Below are positions 21,344 to 29,180 of a DNA stretch of 32,775 nt, piece after piece (positions within the stretch are counted from its first letter, which is position 1; each line of letters begins with the position of its first letter). The DNA is taken from the IMG/VR virus record IMGVR_UViG_3300025141_007310, positions 1 through 32,775 of that record; one strand, written 5' to 3'. The stretch comes from a virus. A model generated the notes under the pieces. The model was given only the letters and a program-made list of their open reading frames with translations. It was not told the DNA's origin and did no database searches. The position numbers were made by a program, and so were the translations under genes.

Positions 21344-21561
21344 TGTTACAAGATAAAAAAGCATTAACCGATTTAGGTGAACGCTGTGTGATGACATTTG
21401 CACAAAGTTTTCTAGCTATCGTTACAGCGGGTCCGATGGTTGGAATGGACGCTGATATATTCAAAGCGGGGGCTGCGGCGGGCGTCGCTGCCGTGTTATC
21501 AGTGCTCAAGTCTTTTGTTGCGTCTAAAAAAGGCGATGGAAGTGGTAATATTCTTACATGA
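21343..21561 (+). CDS. Holin, r1t-like
   Basis: 72 aa. A charged start (MLQDKKALTDLGERCVMTFAQSF) leads into two hydrophobic segments (about 19-34 and 40-58, the second AAAGVAAVLSVLKSF), then a short basic tail. Length, the 'GER...TFAQ' start and position just after the endolysin fit the r1t-type holins that open the membrane at lysis time. Overlaps both neighbours. Confidence 0.82.
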   Translation: MLQDKKALTDLGERCVMTFAQSFLAIVTAGPMVGMDADIFKAGAAAGVAAVLSVLKSFVASKKGDGSGNILT

Positions 21562-22544
21562 AGAAGCTGCTTTCCTTTTTAGCGAAAACCTTTTTCATAC
21601 CGCATGTACGTCTGGGGAATTTGCGATTCCCTACGTTCAAAACCCCCGAAGGCAGGTTACGATTCCCTCGAATCGGTGGCTACTCCCCAGACGTACACAT
21701 CCCATCAATGTCAATTCGCATGAGCGGATTGAAATTACACGGCGGGATTCTTCGAGTAGGTTTAACCGGAATGATTTTTGGCGCTGGAATAATCGCGTTA
21801 GCAATTTTTTTTTCTATTAAAGGTTTGAATGCTGCACCAATTTGGCCTGAACCGGCTTTGTACAATGCGTCTCTAGTTCAACCGGATCGTGCAGTTCAAG
21901 TGGGTAAAGATTGGGAACAATTTTTAGATGATCAAACTCCTGCCGAAGTTCGTGCGCTGCAAACAATGACGCTTCAACTAAATTTATCGTCGGCTCGGGC
22001 GGGCGATATTACGTTGACGGGTCTGGATATTGGTAAAGCGTCGGGCTTGACCGATGCGATTCAAATAGTCGGTTCAACAGGCGGCGGACATAACCTAGTC
22101 TGTGATGAGATTATTTTGGATGGCCTTGAGGCGACAATACTTCATTTAGGGAACTCAGAAATTTATGTGCTGAATGTTACAAATGTGATAGCTGACGGAT
22201 TATCTATTAGTCCGACATTATCGAGTACACCTAAAGATATAGTCGTGCAGTCTACCAGAGGAACCGTATCGGTCCCCGCTGTTACTAACTCAACTTATGA
22301 CCGAATAATCATTGACGTACAAACGGCTGATGGGTTTTGCCGGAAATTAACGCTCAGTAATATATCGGCATACGGAGCAGGAATAAATCTTGACGACATT
22401 CACGCGGGTACGCTGACCATTCAAAATTCGATTATTGGAAACGGAACAGGGATCGACACAGCTAGTTTCACAATCGCCAATACGACAAAAATCAATACTC
22501 TGAATGCTACGAATAACGTCGAACGACCCGTCTCGGTCCAATGA
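21558..22544 (+). CDS. Membrane-anchored beta-solenoid protein of unknown function
   Basis: 328 aa. Residues 1-65 are basic and rich in Arg, Pro and Phe; a transmembrane helix follows (about 67-90, MIFGAGIIALAIFFSIKG). The remaining 240 residues have the regular short-strand, Asn/Gly/Thr-rich pattern of a beta-helix (IVGSTGGGHNLVCDEIILDGLEATIL split by turns, later LTIQNSIIGNGTGID). The orientation is likely cytoplasmic-in with the solenoid outside. It is coded inside the lysis cassette with ATGA overlaps on both sides. Candidates are a superinfection-exclusion factor, a surface display protein or a virion protein; none can be picked. Confidence 0.65.
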   Translation: MKKLLSFLAKTFFIPHVRLGNLRFPTFKTPEGRLRFPRIGGYSPDVHIPSMSIRMSGLKLHGGILRVGLTGMIFGAGIIALAIFFSIKGLNAAPIWPEPALYNASLVQPDRAVQVGKDWEQFLDDQTPAEVRALQTMTLQLNLSSARAGDITLTGLDIGKASGLTDAIQIVGSTGGGHNLVCDEIILDGLEATILHLGNSEIYVLNVTNVIADGLSISPTLSSTPKDIVVQSTRGTVSVPAVTNSTYDRIIIDVQTADGFCRKLTLSNISAYGAGINLDDIHAGTLTIQNSIIGNGTGIDTASFTIANTTKINTLNATNNVERPVSVQ

Positions 22545-23046: not shown

Positions 23047-23649
23047 TTGTCATCATGGGACAGCCGCATTGTGCGAAGCGGCACAGAAGCACCAGAGCAG
23101 TTATTAGCAAATCCAGATAATTGGCGGATTCATCCGAAATATCAGCAAGAAATTATGACTGATATTTTAGATCAGGTCGGATGGGTTCAAAACGTAATCG
23201 TCAACGAACAGACGGGGCATGTAGTTGACGGCCATCTTCGTGTCTCAGTTGCTATTTCAAAAGGCGAGACAGAAGTCCCTGTCGTGTATGTAGATTTAAC
23301 GCCAGAGGAAGAAAAATTAATTCTATCTTCACTTGACCCGATAGCGAGTCTAGCGGTCACGGATGATGGAATGTTGTCGAGTTTGCTGGACAGGGTCGAT
23401 GCTACTGGAGCATTATCTGACATGCTCAGTGAATTAGCTACAGAAAACGCTGATAACCGGTTAGAGTTTTCAACTCAAACTCCACTAACGCAGCAACAAA
23501 TCGACGACAGAAATGCGAAACTACTCGGTCAGTTCGACGAACCAGACAAAACTAGAAAAGTGAAATTAGTTTGTCCTGAGTGCGGATCAGATTACGAGAT
23601 GCTACTTCATGAGTTGCTGCGAGCAGATACGGATTGGGACGTTGACTGA
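23047..23649 (+). CDS. ParB/Srx-like nuclease-fold protein, first of accessory cassette
   Basis: 200 aa from TTG, which has GGGAGG about five bases upstream. The N-terminal ~110 residues show the ParB-like layout EQLLANPDNWRIHP, then VVDGHLRVSVAISKG (DGHLR at 61-65), then EVPVVYVDLTPEEEKL. This version often forms the N-terminus of phage DNA methylases; here no methylase follows. A CPECG near residue 180 suggests a small zinc site. ParB-like domains bind or hydrolyse nucleotides and can cut or guide action on DNA. It opens a run of six overlapping or adjoining genes ending at terminase. Confidence 0.85.
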   Translation: MSSWDSRIVRSGTEAPEQLLANPDNWRIHPKYQQEIMTDILDQVGWVQNVIVNEQTGHVVDGHLRVSVAISKGETEVPVVYVDLTPEEEKLILSSLDPIASLAVTDDGMLSSLLDRVDATGALSDMLSELATENADNRLEFSTQTPLTQQQIDDRNAKLLGQFDEPDKTRKVKLVCPECGSDYEMLLHELLRADTDWDVD

Positions 23650-23650
23650 A

Positions 23651-23950
23651 ATGACTCAGAATGAACGGGACTATGCGAAATTCGCTAAGTTCGTGAGTTC
23701 GTACAAATGGCGACCGGCCAAGACGATGCCAAGTAATCCGCATGAGTACGTTATTAGAAAAACGCGTCCAATTAAAGCTTACGAAGCTCATAATGATGAA
23801 TTTTTAAAAGCCATGAATATTATCAACGAGTTCGGCTATCAAAAATGGTATGGACGTTGGTACACATGTTTAGATTATGGGCCGCACCGGTATTGGATTA
23901 ACAATGACAGGCAAGGCAATCCGTTGCTTATGAATAGAGCTTTGAATTAA
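23651..23950 (+). CDS. Conserved-looking unknown protein with PHEY and YW motifs
   Basis: 99 aa from ATG 23651; a longer reading from 23609 would lie within the ParB-like gene. Aromatic residues are dense: YKWRPAKTMPSNPHEYVIRK, then FGYQKWYGRWYTCLDYGPHRYW, ending NPLLMNRAL. I have a general memory of similar 'W-x-A-x-T-M-P...PHEY...YW...INR' phage proteins but no function for them. Its location between a ParB-like protein and a GNAT enzyme suggests a common pathway. Confidence 0.68.
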   Translation: MTQNERDYAKFAKFVSSYKWRPAKTMPSNPHEYVIRKTRPIKAYEAHNDEFLKAMNIINEFGYQKWYGRWYTCLDYGPHRYWINNDRQGNPLLMNRALN

Positions 23951-24358
23951 ATGTCAGATATATTCATTCGGGATTTAGGGTCAGGGAGAACCATTATTCC
24001 AAGTGAATTAAAACCGGTAGTAGAGGCAGCAAAAGGTGATGGGGTTATCGAACAAATTGGAAAAACTACGACATTGTATGCAGCGTATGAACGCGAACAG
24101 CTTGTAGGTATGTGCGGGGCTATTTGGTATTCAGGATCGGCTAAATTTAAAAACGCGGTTGTTCTTCCTGAATATAGGGGACAGGGAATATATCACCAAA
24201 TGATTCAATACAGGCTAGCACTAGCTGTCAAAAAAAACGTCAAAACCATTTCAGCAATTTGTACAGAAATGTCCCTGCCGACATATATCAAATATGGATT
24301 CGAGCCGATTAGATATTATGAAAATTGGAAACTGACCTATGTGAGAATAACGTTATGA
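23951..24358 (+). CDS. GNAT-superfamily acyltransferase (possible Mom-like role)
   Basis: 135 aa. Core GNAT elements: an acceptor strand (MCGAIWYSGSAKFKNAVVLPEYRGQGI, broken by the loop) with motif A LPEYRGQGIYHQMIQ, and the C-terminal KTISAICTEMSLPTYIKYGFEPI. The usual R/QxxGxG/A reads RGQGIY, with Tyr at the last place. Phage Mu Mom, a DNA adenine modifier, is also a GNAT; with a Com-like protein nearby a Mom-like role is possible, but at 135 aa it is much shorter than Mom and no Mom-specific residue can be claimed. ATG directly follows the upstream TAA. Confidence 0.78.
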   Translation: MSDIFIRDLGSGRTIIPSELKPVVEAAKGDGVIEQIGKTTTLYAAYEREQLVGMCGAIWYSGSAKFKNAVVLPEYRGQGIYHQMIQYRLALAVKKNVKTISAICTEMSLPTYIKYGFEPIRYYENWKLTYVRITL

Positions 24359-24987
24359 AGGCAGCCGTAATAACTATTCCAACTCGCCGAGAGCCGTTGA
24401 ATACGCTATTGAACGTGATCGAGCCGGAGATCCCCGATATCACGATTTACTGTGACGACCAGTTCCGTGGACATTGGTGGAATTATTCTCGTATGTTCAA
24501 AGAAATGCTGGAAAATGCTGACCAAAACGAACCGGTTTTGCTCATGACTGATGATGCGATCACCGTGTCAGGATTTCGTAAAAAATGGGAGTCAATTCAT
24601 TGGCTGGCGCAATCTGAGATTTATTCGTTATTCGGTAGACAACGTCACTTGTTCAAAGAGATAAATATTCAGAGAGGTTATGTTACTAAGGTTCAACCAC
24701 GGGGATTTTATGACCAAGCTGCGATTTTCATAAATCAACAGCAATTACCAAGCCAAGTTGAGAAATGGTTTGAGACTGAAGATTACGAAAATCTTACCCC
24801 ACGGCTTCGAAAAATACGAGAAAAGAAATCGCACTTTGACGTAGTCATTCAGGACTATCTTGTTTATCACGACATTCCGTGGACCATAACAACGCCTACT
24901 CTATTTGATCATCAAGTAGTCAAATCGTCGTTGGGACACGATCATATAGGAGGCTCACCGAGTTATATCGGCAATGAAAGTTTATAA
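24355..24987 (+). CDS. GT-A-like glycosyltransferase
   Basis: 210 aa from ATG 24355 (ATGA overlap). It begins with a strand and loop typical of nucleotide-sugar enzymes (AAVITIPTRREPLNTLLN), and has VLLMTDDAITV at about 60-70, with the acidic pair where GT-A enzymes hold a metal and sugar nucleotide. Later segments (QPRGFYDQAAIFIN, HFDVVIQDYLVYH) fit an acceptor domain with a catalytic acid. A sugar or sugar-like transfer to DNA, protein or virion is possible. Its genetic neighbours favour DNA as target, as an inference. Confidence 0.68.
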   Translation: MKAAVITIPTRREPLNTLLNVIEPEIPDITIYCDDQFRGHWWNYSRMFKEMLENADQNEPVLLMTDDAITVSGFRKKWESIHWLAQSEIYSLFGRQRHLFKEINIQRGYVTKVQPRGFYDQAAIFINQQQLPSQVEKWFETEDYENLTPRLRKIREKKSHFDVVIQDYLVYHDIPWTITTPTLFDHQVVKSSLGHDHIGGSPSYIGNESL

Positions 24988-26128
24988 AAATCAAAACGTA
25001 TTTCAGGCTGCATTAGATCGTATTCGGTGGATTTTCTCCGAGTTTCCTAATCCGGTGGTGGCCGTCAGTGGTGGAAAAGACTCGACTGTCGTGTTTCAGT
25101 TGTCAATGCTCGTTGCAGAAGAACTTGGGCGATTGCCACTGAAAGTGTTTTTTCTTGATCAGGAAGCTGAATGGCAAGCCACGGTTGATATGGTCAAGTC
25201 GATTATGTATGACGAGCGTGTTGAACCGTATTGGGTGCAGGCTCCATTGGTTCTATTCAATGCAACAAGCTCGACCGACCAATGGCTGAAATGTTGGGAC
25301 GAAAGCAAAAAAGATATATGGGTTCACCCCCAAGATCCCATCTCAATTAAAGAAAACCATACTGGTGAAAAGCGGTTTGCCAAACTGTTTGATGCGCTGA
25401 TGGAATACCATTTCGACGGTATCAAAACGTGCCTGATTGGTGGAATGAGAACAGAGGAAACGCCAAAGCGTTTCCTGAGCTTGACGAACAAAGCGATTTA
25501 TAACGGGCGAACATACGGGAAACGCCTGTCCAGACGGCAAGAGCATTACACATTTTATCCAATTTACGATTGGTCTTTCTCGGACGTATGGAAATCTATT
25601 CTTGATAATGAATGGGAATATAATCGGCTATATGATGCGCAGTACCGGTACGGTATTCAGGTGCGAAATATGCGAGTGTCCAATGTTCATCATGAAACTG
25701 CCGTCCGGCAATTGTTCTATATGCAGGAAATAGAACCTGAAACACATAATCGACTGACCAAGCGATTAGCCGGTATCGACATGGCAACAAAGTTCGGGGA
25801 AGATGATTATGGCGTGGTTGATGAGTTGCCGTTTATGTTTGAGACATGGCGGGAATACCGTGATTATCTACTGGAACATTTGGTTCTTGACGACGAATAT
25901 AAAAAACACTTTCTCAAGCATTTCAAATATGCTGATGAAATCTTCGGCGAGGATTTGGGCGACCGGAAATATAAAGTTGCCATTCAGGGCATACTGAGAA
26001 ATGATTGGGAAGGCATAATGCTGGAAAATTTAAGGCTTAATCCAAAATACATTCCTATTCAAAAGAAGAATCGAGCATTGCGGGACAAAGCTCGGGAAGA
26101 GGCAAAAAATGGTCTGCAAATCACTTGA
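24974..26128 (+). CDS. PAPS-reductase-family ATPase, IbrA-like
   Basis: 384 aa. An N-type ATP pyrophosphatase loop SGGKDST (residues 32-38) opens the domain; GGMRTEETPKRFLSL and YPIYDWSFSDVW follow as in the phosphoadenosine phosphosulfate reductase superfamily. The long C-terminal part fits the IbrA/DUF3440 group. It lacks the C-terminal ECGLH-type active-site motif of assimilatory CysH, so it should not be called a sulfur-assimilation gene. With the following ParB-like gene it makes the known IbrA-IbrB pair. Substrate unknown; ATP-dependent activation (adenylation or thiolation) of a base or tRNA is possible. Overlaps both neighbours. Confidence 0.85.
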   Translation: MKVYKNQNVFQAALDRIRWIFSEFPNPVVAVSGGKDSTVVFQLSMLVAEELGRLPLKVFFLDQEAEWQATVDMVKSIMYDERVEPYWVQAPLVLFNATSSTDQWLKCWDESKKDIWVHPQDPISIKENHTGEKRFAKLFDALMEYHFDGIKTCLIGGMRTEETPKRFLSLTNKAIYNGRTYGKRLSRRQEHYTFYPIYDWSFSDVWKSILDNEWEYNRLYDAQYRYGIQVRNMRVSNVHHETAVRQLFYMQEIEPETHNRLTKRLAGIDMATKFGEDDYGVVDELPFMFETWREYRDYLLEHLVLDDEYKKHFLKHFKYADEIFGEDLGDRKYKVAIQGILRNDWEGIMLENLRLNPKYIPIQKKNRALRDKAREEAKNGLQIT

Positions 26129-26723
26129 TAATCACCCTGTAAATAATGTTCAATGGGTTCCTATTGAACAGGTTACTGCTAACGATTACAACCCGAATGT
26201 GGTTGCAACCAACGAACTTCGTTTGCTGTATGTGAGTATAAAAGCCGATGGATATACTCAACCGGTTGTTACGGTACGCGATGAGGAAACAAATAAATAT
26301 GTGATTATTGATGGATTTCACCGATATCTGGTCATGAAAGAAAATACAGATATTCGGGAAGATTGCTCAGGTCTATTGCCGATAGTGGTATTAGAAAAAA
26401 CAATGAATGAGCGAATGGCTTCGACAGTCCGGCATAATCGAGCGCGTGGAAAACATCAAGTTACCGGTATGTCAAACATAGTATTTTCCATGTTGGATAA
26501 CGGCATGACTGATGAAGAAATTTGTTCGCAAATGGGCATGGAACCGGACGAACTGCTCCGTTTGAAATATGTAACCGGATTTGCAAAATTGTTTGAAAAC
26601 ACAGAATACAGACAATCATGGGAAACACGTCGTATGATACGACTACGGCGCGATTATGATAGAGATCAAGATTCGCGTGGAGAGGAATTGTCAGAATGGC
26701 AATCGGAAGGCCGTCAAAGCTAA
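26109..26723 (+). CDS. ParB-like protein, IbrB-like partner
   Basis: 204 aa. ParB-like domain with WVPIEQVTANDYNPN, YTQPVVTVRD, and IIDGFHRYLV (DGFHR 68-72), followed by a conserved-looking RHNRARGKHQVTGMSNIV and a small helix-turn-helix (MTDEEICSQMGMEPDELLRLK). This is the domain order of IbrB-like proteins. It overlaps IbrA by 20 bases and terminase small subunit by 28, so the pair and terminase are co-translated. A DNA-targeting role for the pair is the natural guess. Confidence 0.83.
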   Translation: MVCKSLDNHPVNNVQWVPIEQVTANDYNPNVVATNELRLLYVSIKADGYTQPVVTVRDEETNKYVIIDGFHRYLVMKENTDIREDCSGLLPIVVLEKTMNERMASTVRHNRARGKHQVTGMSNIVFSMLDNGMTDEEICSQMGMEPDELLRLKYVTGFAKLFENTEYRQSWETRRMIRLRRDYDRDQDSRGEELSEWQSEGRQS

Positions 26724-27097
26724 CGCCTGAGCGAAAAAATAAGTTCATAGGTGCAATTCGCAGTGGAAGTTTTTTGAACACTGCTTGCAAATGGGCTGGA
26801 ATTTCTGACGCGACTTATTATCTGTGGATGAAAAAAGGCAGGGAAGCCACTCGTGGTGAATACCGTGAATTTTTTGAAGCAGTTCAAGACGCGGAAGCTC
26901 AGGCAGAATTAAACGCAGTTTCAAAATGGCAAGAATTTGCCGGAACTAATTGGCAAGCATACAGGGATTTCTTACGGTATAGATTTCATGAGAATTGGAC
27001 AATCGCACCTACGCAAGTCGAATTGACTGGAGCGAAAGGCGCACCAATGGAAGTTGAGTTCAGCATTGAGCGAACTACAGGCCGCGACGAAGAATAA
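26696..27097 (+). CDS. Terminase small subunit
   Basis: 133 aa. N-terminal helix-turn-helix (LTPERKNKFIGAIRSG, FLNTACKWAGISDATYYLWMKKG) is of the sort that recognises packaging sites; a central helical region (EFFEAVQDAEAQAELNAVSKW) fits the oligomerisation part, and the tail overlaps the large-subunit start. Position just before the large subunit makes the assignment strong. Confidence 0.85.
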   Translation: MAIGRPSKLTPERKNKFIGAIRSGSFLNTACKWAGISDATYYLWMKKGREATRGEYREFFEAVQDAEAQAELNAVSKWQEFAGTNWQAYRDFLRYRFHENWTIAPTQVELTGAKGAPMEVEFSIERTTGRDEE

Positions 27098-28307
27098 ATC
27101 AGTTTTAAAACTGCCCGCCCTGTACCCTGCGCAATCAGAGGCGATTGAGTGTCCTGAGCGTTTTTCTATTATTGAAGCCAGCACTAAATCCGGCAAAACT
27201 CTGGGATGTTTAATTTGGCTAACGGGGCAAGCATGGGAACACGGGGCTGAAGGGCGTGTGTTTTGGTGGGTTGCACCGGTGTTTCAGCAAGCCAAGATAG
27301 CATTTAGGCGAATGGTACTTGGATTAGCTGAGGCGAAAATGCCTGACGGAAGTCCTACCACTGGATACGCTTCAGCTAATCAGGGGTCGCTTACTATTTC
27401 TTTTAGAAATGGAGCAAGAATAGAATTCAAAAGTGCCGATACTCCTGACCGATTATATGGTGAAGATGTATATGCAGCGGTAATTGATGAGGCCTCTCGA
27501 ATGAGAGAAGAGGCGTGGACTGCTGTTCGTTCTACTTTGACCGCTACTCGCGGGCCGGTGCGAATAATCGGCAATGTGAAAGGCCGTAAAAATTGGGCGT
27601 ATCGGCTTGCACGTCGAGCAGAACTTGGAGAGCCGGATTGGAAATACTCGAAATTAGATGCGTATGATGCTGTTGAAGGTGGAGTTCTGGAAAGCGAAGA
27701 AATTGAATCTGCTAAAAACATGCTCCCGATTAACGTGTTCAAAGAATTGTACATGGCTGAGGCGTCCGATGATTCTGGTAGCCCATTCGGATCGAATGCA
27801 ATCAATAATTGTATCGGCCCTATGTCGAATAAGCCCCCGTATGTCTGGGGTTGGGATTTAGCCAAATCAGTAGATTATACTGTCGGGATCGCTTTGGACG
27901 AAAATGGAGAAGTTTGCAGATTTGAGAGATTCCAAAGGGATTGGGAATATACTACTGATACAGTTGCTCGCTTGATCGGAGATGATACCGCGCTTGTTGA
28001 TGCGTCCGGCGTAGGTGACCCGATTGTTGAGAAATTGCAAAAAGCAAATCCCAACACAGAAGGGTTCAAATTTACTGCCGGTTCTAAACAACAATTAATG
28101 GAAGGGCTGGTCATGGCAATTCAAAGCCAAGAAATAAGATACCCAGATAATGAAATTCGTGTTGAGCTTGATGCATTTGAATATACTTACAGCCGAACCG
28201 GTGTTCGGTATTCTGCTCCGGAAGGAATGCATGACGATTGTGTATGTGCTCTGGCATTAGCATGGAAAGCATATAAAAATATTCCGGTAGGGTTCGGCTT
28301 ATGGTAA
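27054..28307 (+). CDS. Terminase large subunit
   Basis: 417 aa. ATPase motor: Walker A-like EASTKSGKT and Walker B YAAVIDEASRM. Nuclease domain of RNase H fold: GWDLAKSVDYTVG, ALVDASGVGDP and the final MHDDCVCALALAWKAY supply the acidic metal ligands. It cuts concatemers and pumps DNA through the portal. Start is TTG 27054, overlapping the small-subunit gene by 44 bases, with only a weak binding site; a TTG at 27066 is the alternative. Placing terminase at the end of the late operon rather than in front of portal is less common. Confidence 0.93.
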   Translation: MSSALSELQAATKNKSVLKLPALYPAQSEAIECPERFSIIEASTKSGKTLGCLIWLTGQAWEHGAEGRVFWWVAPVFQQAKIAFRRMVLGLAEAKMPDGSPTTGYASANQGSLTISFRNGARIEFKSADTPDRLYGEDVYAAVIDEASRMREEAWTAVRSTLTATRGPVRIIGNVKGRKNWAYRLARRAELGEPDWKYSKLDAYDAVEGGVLESEEIESAKNMLPINVFKELYMAEASDDSGSPFGSNAINNCIGPMSNKPPYVWGWDLAKSVDYTVGIALDENGEVCRFERFQRDWEYTTDTVARLIGDDTALVDASGVGDPIVEKLQKANPNTEGFKFTAGSKQQLMEGLVMAIQSQEIRYPDNEIRVELDAFEYTYSRTGVRYSAPEGMHDDCVCALALAWKAYKNIPVGFGLW

Positions 28308-28414
28308 CTAAGATGCAGATGCGCTGCGAATATTGTGGGAAATTATTAGCGGAGATTGCTACGACAGGGACCGTGATTAAATGTACTCGATGCAAGCGGA
28401 TTAATAAAACATGA
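28301..28414 (+). CDS. com: Com-like zinc-ribbon protein, 37 aa
   Basis: 37 aa with start inside the terminase stop region and stop overlapping the HNH start (ATGA). The sequence MRCEYCGKLLAEI ... VIKCTRCKRINK follows the pattern RCxxCxKLL(x8-11)I(x)CxRCKR of phage Mu Com. In Mu, Com binds mom mRNA and activates its translation. Ours is shorter than Mu Com (about 62 aa), retaining the zinc ribbon only. ATGs at 28313 and 28319 are alternative starts. It is the best single hint that the GNAT of this phage is a Mom-type modifier. Confidence 0.78.
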   Translation: MVTKMQMRCEYCGKLLAEIATTGTVIKCTRCKRINKT

Positions 28415-28725
28415 AGCGTTCTCCGATGAAACGCACTGGACGGTTGAAACCTCGTTCTAAAAAAATGTCTGAGAAATATATTGACCGGCGAAAACTGGTT
28501 GGAGAAATGCTTTCAGCGTTTCCAACATGCCAAGCTCAGGTTCAAGGCGTATGCCGAAACGTGTCAGTAGATATTCATGAACTTTTAGCTCGCAGTCAGG
28601 GTGGTTCGATTCTGGATAAAGAGAATTGTCTGGCAGTATGCCGGATGTGTCACTCATGGATAGGCGATAATCCGGCAGAAGCCACTATACTGGGATTACG
28701 TCGAAGAAGATACGGAAATGGATAA
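28411..28725 (+). CDS. HNH endonuclease
   Basis: 104 aa. A basic N-terminus (MKRSPMKRTGRLKPRSKK) is followed by the metal-bound nuclease fold: CQAQVQGVC, VDIHELLARSQGG (catalytic His region), NCLAVCRMCHSWIG. HNH proteins beside terminase are frequent and help the terminase cut DNA in HK97-like phages. A free-standing homing enzyme is the other possibility. The gene is in the rightward unit after terminase and the Com-like gene. Confidence 0.9.
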   Translation: MKRSPMKRTGRLKPRSKKMSEKYIDRRKLVGEMLSAFPTCQAQVQGVCRNVSVDIHELLARSQGGSILDKENCLAVCRMCHSWIGDNPAEATILGLRRRRYGNG

Positions 28726-28823: not shown

Positions 28824-29180
28824 ATGTATGAATATAAAGTCTTTCTGGACAGGATTGTTGACGGGGATACTGTTGATGTTCACATTGATCTCGGTTTTGA
28901 TGTCAGACTGACCGGACAGCGAATTAGGCTTTTCGGGCTAGATACTTGGGAAAGCCGAACTCGTGATCTTGAGGTAAAGGCCAAAGGATTATTGGCGAAG
29001 GATTTCACGAAACATATGTGTGAAGAAGCTGAGCAGATTATTTTGATTAGTCATGAGCGCGGAAAGTATGGCCGGATTCTAGGGGAACTCATTTGCGATG
29101 GAGTAAATCTAAACGATGCTCTCCTAGAAAACGGCCACGCGGTGAAGTATTACGGTGGAACAAAAACCTTGAAAAGTTAA
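28824..29180 (+). CDS. Staphylococcal nuclease-like (SNase) protein
   Basis: 118 aa. The SNase core is clear: FLDRIVDGDTVDVHIDLGF, RIRLFGLDTWESR (catalytic Arg and acidic residues), and ERGKYGRILGEL (second Arg), then GVNLNDALLENGHAV. These OB-fold enzymes cut DNA and RNA with calcium. No signal peptide, so it acts inside the cell, perhaps on host DNA or packaging intermediates. It is the last gene of the rightward unit; its TAA shares the palindrome TTAA with the stop of the opposing gene. Confidence 0.92.
   Translation: MYEYKVFLDRIVDGDTVDVHIDLGFDVRLTGQRIRLFGLDTWESRTRDLEVKAKGLLAKDFTKHMCEEAEQIILISHERGKYGRILGELICDGVNLNDALLENGHAVKYYGGTKTLKS

Follow-up and report, generated by a model that had tools for sequence, protein, structure and literature searches.

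The six-gene cassette that precedes the terminase genes in the window (i.e., the whole stretch of 32,775 nucleotides analysed here) is a variant of a phage module that occurs widely, rather than a chance assembly of genes, a conclusion that is well supported by comparison of gene content across viruses. This module, in which a core of IbrA, IbrB, and a small protein termed PHEY is joined by swappable capping enzymes, probably carries out post-replicative hypermodification of phage DNA; we put the probability of this reading at roughly 0.6, and we infer DNA as the substrate partly from the association of the module with ParB proteins, terminase, and methyltransferases.

The cassette (positions 23047-26723, all genes on the + strand) lies between the lysis region and the genes encoding the terminase subunits TerS and TerL. 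All six open reading frames, which a first-pass annotation had described as adjoining or overlapping genes at this site, were confirmed, and each one adjoins or overlaps its neighbours, through to TerS/TerL, as follows:

23047..23649, + strand: ParB1, 200 aa, TTG start; ParB/Srx-like N-terminal domain and C-terminal CPECG zinc-ribbon-like tail
23651..23950, + strand: PHEY, 99 aa; small alpha/beta domain with near-invariant A-K, P-H, YW, and N-R
23951..24358, + strand: GNAT-family acyltransferase, 135 aa; PF13508/PF13673, with same-slot relatives
24355..24987, + strand: predicted GT-A-fold glycosyltransferase (GT), 210 aa from ATG 24355; DD motif at residues 66-67, D162, H186
24974..26128, + strand: IbrA, 384 aa; PP-loop ATP-pyrophosphatase (PAPS-reductase/CysD/FAD-synthase superfamily) plus DUF3440
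26109..26723, + strand: IbrB, 204 aa; ParB/Srx-superfamily partner with DGFHR and RHNRARGKH motifs
26696..27097, + strand: terminase small subunit TerS (phrog_4102, 2.9e-26); translationally overlaps IbrB at the packaging end of the operon
27054..28307, + strand: terminase large subunit TerL (phrog_2, 9.4e-32; Terminase_6N, 4e-7); operon context

The TTG start of ParB1 at 23047 is preceded by a GGGAGG Shine-Dalgarno sequence. Three starts were corrected from the sequence: PHEY begins at ATG 23651, 1 nt past the ParB1 stop (the listed reading frame ran from 23609), GNAT at ATG 23951, immediately past the PHEY stop, and GT at ATG 24355, which overlaps the end of GNAT through ATGA (the TTG listed for it, at 24325, is probably too far upstream). 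Further downstream, GT and IbrA overlap by 14 nt, IbrA and IbrB by 20 nt, and IbrB and TerS by 28 nt. The cassette region yielded no tRNA, no Rfam match, and no meaningful promoter or terminator signal.

IbrA and IbrB are adjacent members of the PAPS-reductase-like/DUF3440 and ParB-like families, respectively, with strong matches to both. IbrA matched Pfam PAPS_reduct (2e-15) and DUF3440 (8e-8) as well as phrog_2302 (1.6e-78), and its PDB profile matches were FAD synthase, CysD, and PAPS reductase; IbrB matched ParB_N (about 5e-7) and phrog_2159 (1.3e-73). The phosphate-binding loop of PP-loop ATP-pyrophosphatases is present in IbrA as SGGKDS (S32-S37), with each position conserved in at least 84 of 87 relatives and K, D, and S in all 87. 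The same two families, adjacent and overlapping, also form the IbrA/IbrB pair known from phages and prophages (PHROG 2302/2159, DUF3440 plus ParB), which often has another ParB upstream and is followed by terminase, as in Phlyer, Wheelbite, and FP_Taranis. Among the cultured IbrAB phages that were inspected, those other than Microbacterium phages show neither PHEY nor a GT of the window type. Compared with an ordinary IbrA/IbrB pair, the close clade of the window IbrA adds PHEY and exchangeable transfer enzymes.

With regard to the remaining four proteins, nucleotide and tblastn searches of the cultured-phage collection found no match for the window GT, GNAT, or PHEY, and profile searches were therefore needed; the PHEY and GT profiles used for scanning were built from closer subsets of the alignments. 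Pfam gave no match for PHEY or GT and nothing above cutoff for ParB1, which matched phrog_498 (7.5e-20), a family that covers the ParB portion of fusions with methyltransferases, and phrog_620 (4.7e-17). ParB1 counterparts are present in most module loci, and a CPxC tail like that of ParB1 also occurs in the related locus L101 and in ParB2 of Microbacterium phage Hendrix. GNAT matched PF13508/PF13673 (E 3e-9; PF13508 at 37.3 bits, cutoff 27), and its relatives occupy the same slot in related loci. GT matched phrog_854, "glucosyltransferase" (4.5e-7), and is confidently predicted to adopt a GT-A fold, as its model (pLDDT 92.4) had mostly GT-A enzymes as top Foldseek PDB matches (E 1.6e-6), with D66/D67, D162, and H186 conserved; L101 carries a 55% identical GT in the same slot. 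P28, H29, W80, and N93 of PHEY are invariant in an alignment of 73 relatives. Searches with PHEY found no solved relative by sequence and no confident PDB fold match for its model (pLDDT 87.9; best PDB Foldseek E 0.25, VIA Z ≤3.8), which is not proof of a new fold; one unnamed viral protein was matched at E 8e-5. Bacterial genomes encode fusions of PHEY with class I methyltransferases and a single fusion with the N-terminal domain of GmrSD, which restricts modified DNA, while a few bacterial PHEY proteins (a DUF6994 fusion, stand-alone genes) have no obvious DNA role.

An independent scan of viral contigs with the PHEY profile yielded 61 distinct PHEY loci, of which 54 have IbrA no more than 4 kb away (36 of the 39 with adequate flanks). 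For comparison, only 215 of the 50,697 records in the cultured-phage collection contain an IbrA relative. Conversely, 38 distinct close IbrA loci include sufficient DNA upstream to be compared: IbrB adjoins IbrA in all 38, another ParB is present in 36, and PHEY in 34. At least one tailoring enzyme, counted as a window-type GT, GNAT, N6/N4 amino-methyltransferase (c4), HxD...H protein (c34), or GT2 (c35), occurs in 36 of these loci; in the other two, PHEY is fused to a class I methyltransferase. (The c2 profile includes such fusions, and c2 labels on stand-alone PHEY proteins were disregarded.) Visual inspection suggests a resemblance of the HxD...H family to 2OG-Fe oxygenases, which neither Pfam nor PDB matches support. 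Among the alternative occupants, c4 is the most frequent; it is a DPPW amino-methyltransferase belonging to the DNA-methylase family, with PF01555 above cutoff for one member (L019). In diverse viruses, the terminase genes directly follow the core (PHEY, IbrA, IbrB, and one or two additional ParB-like proteins), while tailoring enzymes are swapped between close relatives: a tree of IbrA from 87 loci requires no fewer than 45 changes of tailoring set (possible minimum 8; shuffled mean 57.9), and the core stays. The window and its sister on this tree (L258; 57% IbrA identity, 97% SH-aLRT) differ in tailoring: the nearest relative of the window carries two amino-methyltransferases in place of GNAT and GT. 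An operon of this kind is also present in the cultured phage Hendrix, which encodes GT, a PHEY-methyltransferase, an acyltransferase, and IbrA, then IbrB, two ParB proteins, a TerS-like protein, and TerL, in an operon that spans the ends of its record with the break between IbrA and IbrB.

A conserved set of activation and group-transfer genes, as would be expected of a phage hypermodification pathway, is present in many phages. The arrangement is found again in dozens of diverged viruses, which goes beyond chance. Comparative genomics also backs the proposal that the six genes belong together, with an activating enzyme, acyl and sugar transferases, and ParB partners in one unit coupled to packaging genes. 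As a single set the six genes held up in part: PHEY, IbrA, IbrB, and a ParB are a conserved core, whereas GNAT and GT are optional or exchangeable. IbrA-IbrB pairs, many GNATs, and a few PHEY proteins do occur independently of the others, but the close clade as a whole does not. The first-pass annotation had also known of no described pathway using this exact set; our search, which covered the open-access literature with subscription journals outside it, likewise found no description of the module. The set is not peculiar to this phage.

Several known systems share parts of this logic. Phage 5-carboxymethylcytosine is amidated by CmoY, an AMP-forming homologue of asparagine synthetase, whose gene clusters frequently include ParBc proteins (PMC12783734). 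This is a precedent for the proposed logic: a base handle, ATP-dependent AMP-forming ligation, and frequent ParBc proteins are features that the CmoA/CmoX/CmoY pathway would share with the cassette. However, Pfam and PHROGs identified no CmoA, C5-carboxymethyltransferase, or asparagine-synthetase-like ligase among the cassette proteins, IbrA belongs to the PAPS-reductase branch, and the pathway as described lacks the GT, GNAT, and PHEY that the cassette has. Thymidine hypermodification, reportedly described by Lee et al. in 2018, uses a 5-hmdU kinase, amino-acid transfer, and tailoring; it resembles the proposed scheme in that an installed handle is followed by variable tailoring, including acyl transfer, but its genes for hydroxymethyl-dUMP synthase, base kinase, and amino-acid transferase are absent from the cassette. 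Mu Mom, a GNAT-fold enzyme of adenine modification, is likewise a GNAT superfamily enzyme in a phage, yet no profile similarity of the window GNAT to it was detected (hhalign probability 0.3% against the single Mu Mom sequence); the window GNAT matched ordinary GNAT profiles instead. The DNA glucosyltransferases of T4 are GT-B enzymes, in contrast to the modelled GT-A fold of the window GT. Serratia phage eta is reported to contain a modified nucleoside.

As evidence for DNA we counted the DNA-methylase-family enzymes in the tailoring slot and the GmrSD and methyltransferase fusions of PHEY. Against it we counted the finding that GT and GNAT could not be placed in any known DNA-modifying family tested, the PHEY proteins with no obvious DNA role, and the lack of a dedicated nucleotide-synthesis gene in the cassette. 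GNATs and GTs commonly act on protein or glycan targets, and the structures in the PDB closest to the GT model are transferases that act on protein, glycan, and teichoic acid; the module might therefore decorate a protein or glycan of the capsid, the tail, or, to exclude superinfecting phages, the host surface, with the ParB proteins only tethering or regulating. We consider this unlikely, as GT and GNAT are replaced in their slot by DNA-methylase-family amino-methyltransferases and the linked genes encode two ParB/Srx proteins and terminase rather than tail or capsid proteins. PP-loop enzymes also commonly adenylate RNA bases, and tRNA genes lie a few kb upstream of the cassettes of Hendrix and Rasputia; still, a tRNA or rRNA substrate, as for TilS, TtcA, and MnmA, is improbable given that IbrA matches the PAPS-reductase/CysD/FAD-synthase branch, that the window has no tRNA gene, and that the cassette is coupled to terminase, a late DNA-handling function.

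The pairing of a PAPS-reductase-like PP-loop enzyme with a ParB-superfamily protein is also reminiscent of Dnd/Ssp phosphorothioation, where IbrA would act as DndC and the ParB proteins would be DndB-like; DndB belongs to the ParB superfamily (PMC12839542), and IbrA has weak matches to DndC/BrxP/SspD profiles (PADLOC, E 1e-8 to 2e-3). DndC, however, requires [4Fe-4S] cysteines such as C280 (PMC11662687), whereas no cysteine is invariant among the 87 IbrA relatives (C107 is found in 69 and C153 in 52), neither DndD nor DndE is among the cassette proteins, and the additional GT, GNAT, and methyltransferase partners have no role in phosphorothioation, which makes this explanation very unlikely. 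We give similarly little credence to IbrA and IbrB being mainly co-activators of gene expression surrounded by unrelated morons. The pair was named from E. coli, where it is linked to Ig-binding and serum resistance (summarised in PMC4541368), and annotators label it as co-activators of prophage gene expression; against this, the linkage and translational coupling of PHEY and the tailoring enzymes are too consistent for unrelated genes, and the ATP-pyrophosphatase signature is fully conserved.

Under hypermodification of DNA, the module would act on phage DNA after its replication, either ahead of packaging or in the course of it. IbrA would spend ATP (alpha-beta cleavage, yielding AMP and PPi) to adenylate, activating a group for substitution or ligation; as guesses, IbrB and ParB1 may bind DNA and nucleotide and recruit the enzymes to DNA, and PHEY, because of its fusions to methyltransferases, may be an accessory domain to transfer enzymes. 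GNAT and GT would then cap the installed group with acyl and sugar. Swapping caps would alter the outer face of the DNA and thereby its sensitivity to restriction and modification-dependent nucleases; the counter-defence role suggested earlier is a further step, which the fast turnover of tailoring enzymes may point to. More tentatively, and at somewhat less than even odds, the core may represent an undescribed DNA-base or backbone chemistry, in which a PAPS-reductase-type enzyme adenylates DNA, a handle is installed, acyl, sugar, and methyl caps are swapped combinatorially to escape restriction and modification-dependent nucleases, and PHEY is a new dedicated domain.

Phage PAPS-reductase-like genes have commonly been read as sulfur-metabolism or unexplained auxiliary genes (e.g., PMC5463345, PMC10434257; membership of those genes in IbrA is not implied). 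The findings reported here place IbrA as the anchor of an extensive modular set of phage genes, in which the core is recognisable and the group-transfer enzymes are exchangeable. If the substrate is DNA, which is directly testable in cultured soil phages, these hypermodification pathways would form a new family, could supply DNA-modifying enzymes, and would probably be targeted by type IV restriction.

The window, a record of 32,775 bases from a virus of siphovirus type, carries the cassette behind recognizable head, tail and lysis genes:

7298, portal
9583, head protease
10252, major head protein
15540, tape measure
20699, endolysin-like gene
23047-26723, plus strand, cassette (ParB1, PHEY, GNAT, GT, IbrA and IbrB), followed by TerS and TerL

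All six cassette genes named in the first-pass annotation are present; they begin after a 200-nt gap and continue in an unbroken run into TerS and TerL, with starts refined from the sequence to 23651 for PHEY, 23951 for GNAT and 24355 for GT. Because each cassette gene either directly adjoins the next or shares a few bases with it (overlaps of 4, 14, 20 and 28 nt), the co-translation with terminase proposed in that annotation is retained as a fair reading, in the form of translational coupling. Between the endolysin and the cassette lies a gene for a 328-aa protein (21558-22544) with a possible N-terminal membrane segment and no PHROG match, and TerL is followed by an HNH endonuclease-like gene (28411-28725) and a staphylococcal-nuclease-like gene (28824-29180).

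The cassette is a module. Conservation of gene order among phages had been suggested as a check, and homologues of the cassette genes do recur around IbrA across viral contigs. A scan with an IbrA profile yielded 80 loci, and in the closest IbrA clade homologues of PHEY, GNAT, GT, TerS and TerL surround IbrA, although none of these was part of the query. A separate scan with PHEY as sole query found 61 distinct loci, with IbrA (54/61), IbrB (48/61) and another ParB (53/61) within 4 kb, and IbrA is likewise present in 23 of the 28 distinct loci found with GT, the remaining five being the most distant GT relatives (24-32% identity). Among 38 distinct loci with the closest IbrA proteins and at least 2.5 kb upstream, IbrB was found in all 38, ParB in 36, PHEY in 34 and any tailoring enzyme in 36; in the other two (L297 and L306), PHEY is fused to a class I methyltransferase, as it is in 8 of 74 PHEY loci. 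Of the 43 loci for which 4 kb or more of downstream sequence is available, at least 26 have a terminase-like gene within 4 kb; the true number may be higher, as the profiles used for terminase represent only part of its families. The window's own virus is among the loci counted here.

The enzymes upstream of IbrA are exchangeable. Among 87 diverged loci, this slot holds the window's type of GT in 46 (that of L101 being 55% identical to the window's), an amino-methyltransferase with a DPPW motif in 37 (PF01555 above cutoff for L019), a GNAT in 26 and an HxD...H protein in 13, always together with GT; rarer occupants are the PHEY-methyltransferase fusions noted above, GT2, Methyltransf_24 and a saccharopine-dehydrogenase-like protein. 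The window's set of PHEY, GT, GNAT and IbrA occurs in 10/87 loci, window included, leaving out three with the same set plus an amino-methyltransferase. The window's nearest relative, L258 (IbrA identity 57%, SH-aLRT 97), carries two amino-methyltransferases where the window has GNAT and GT. On the IbrA tree, the tailoring combination changes at least 45 times, compared to a possible minimum of 8 and a shuffled mean of 57.9; the sets are thus partly inherited, with fast turnover. If the enzymes add alternative caps to a single shared product, this pattern of an unchanging core next to a slot with varied occupants is the one to be expected. The amino-methyltransferases are sometimes paired in tandem, one with DPPW and the other with the motif lost (L102:5303-6420 and L023:3825-5004), which suggests a heterodimer of one active and one inactive subunit that lacks a target-recognition domain. 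The HxD...H protein (~170 aa, conserved PLHxD...DTHSPHQ; L029:4477-5004, L027:4483-4998, L015:3-500 and ten more) resembles an Fe(II)/2OG oxygenase by eye, but matches nothing in Pfam or the PDB. In more distant phages (L056, L057, L061, L063, L076 and L083), a different GNAT directly follows IbrA, mostly as IbrA-GNAT-IbrB, and the IbrA-GNAT partnership therefore reaches past the close clade.

Cultured phages carry related arrangements. In the Microbacterium phages Rasputia, Hendrix and Leaf (Rogerhendrixvirus), the right-hand end of the record carries GT, an acyltransferase, PHEY-methyltransferase and IbrA; the acyltransferases do not match the GNAT profile and are only weakly similar to the window's GNAT. 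As the left end of Hendrix opens with IbrB (1.6e-75), followed by two more ParB proteins, a TerS-like gene and TerL, its operon appears to run on across the record ends. Simpler relatives have the backbone alone: Phlyer (ParB-x-x-IbrA-IbrB-TerL), Wheelbite (ParB-IbrA-ParB-methyltransferase-HTH-TerL) and FP_Taranis (ParB-like-IbrA-IbrB-x-x-TerS-TerL).

With regard to the proteins, IbrA belongs to the PP-loop ATP-pyrophosphatases (PAPS_reduct 2e-15, DUF3440 8e-8) and has FAD synthase, CysD and PAPS reductase as relatives in the PDB, IbrB belongs to ParB/Srx, and GNAT is an ordinary GNAT by profile. ParB1 matches the ParB portion of phage ParB-methyltransferase fusions (phrog_498), with PADLOC MTase_II on the same residues. 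GT has no Pfam match; its AlphaFold model (pLDDT 92.4) matches the GT-A enzymes KfiA, Mimivirus R655, COLGALT1 and TarP, and DD, D162 and H186 are conserved. The model of PHEY is confident (pLDDT 87.9) but matches nothing in the PDB (best Foldseek E 0.25, VIA Z <=3.8).

Conservation, gene order, an intact ATP-binding motif, the GT-A and GNAT families and modular exchange are established for the module. As for mechanism, IbrA would adenylate a group on DNA so that it can undergo substitution or ligation, recruitment to DNA would fall to IbrB and ParB1, PHEY may aid the transfer enzymes, and GNAT and GT would cap the product ahead of packaging. CmoY, which carries out ATP-dependent ligation on phage DNA and has ParBc neighbours, is a direct precedent for such a ligation (PMC12783734). 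Phosphorothioation is disfavoured as an alternative because IbrA has no invariant cysteine among its relatives, whereas DndC requires C280 (PMC11662687). DNA, rather than protein, glycan or RNA, is the favoured substrate of the proposed pathway, since DNA-methylase-family enzymes share the slot, the partners are ParB/Srx proteins, the module is linked to terminase and the caps turn over fast.

Outside phages PHEY is rare (9/395 and 1/398 genomes in the phyla of G007 and G009, respectively). Bacterial loci L246-L249 have it fused to class I methyltransferases, L224 to DUF6994, and L244 is a prophage-like IbrA-PHEY-methyltransferase-ParB cluster. A viral contig encodes a fusion to an AAA/SMC-like ATPase (L122:4977-6767), near which IbrA was not found. 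PHEY may also be tied to restriction of modified DNA: it forms the C-terminus of a GmrSD_N protein in one bacterial genome (L221, 3718-6273) and adjoins a full GmrSD gene in another (L222, 6302-8008). As this amounts to one fusion and one neighbour, the association is a lead and not a pattern.

Phage DNA hypermodification as such is already known; no description of this gene set, the PHEY domain or the swapping pattern was found in the open-access papers to which the search was confined. The core chemistry may well be new in its own right.
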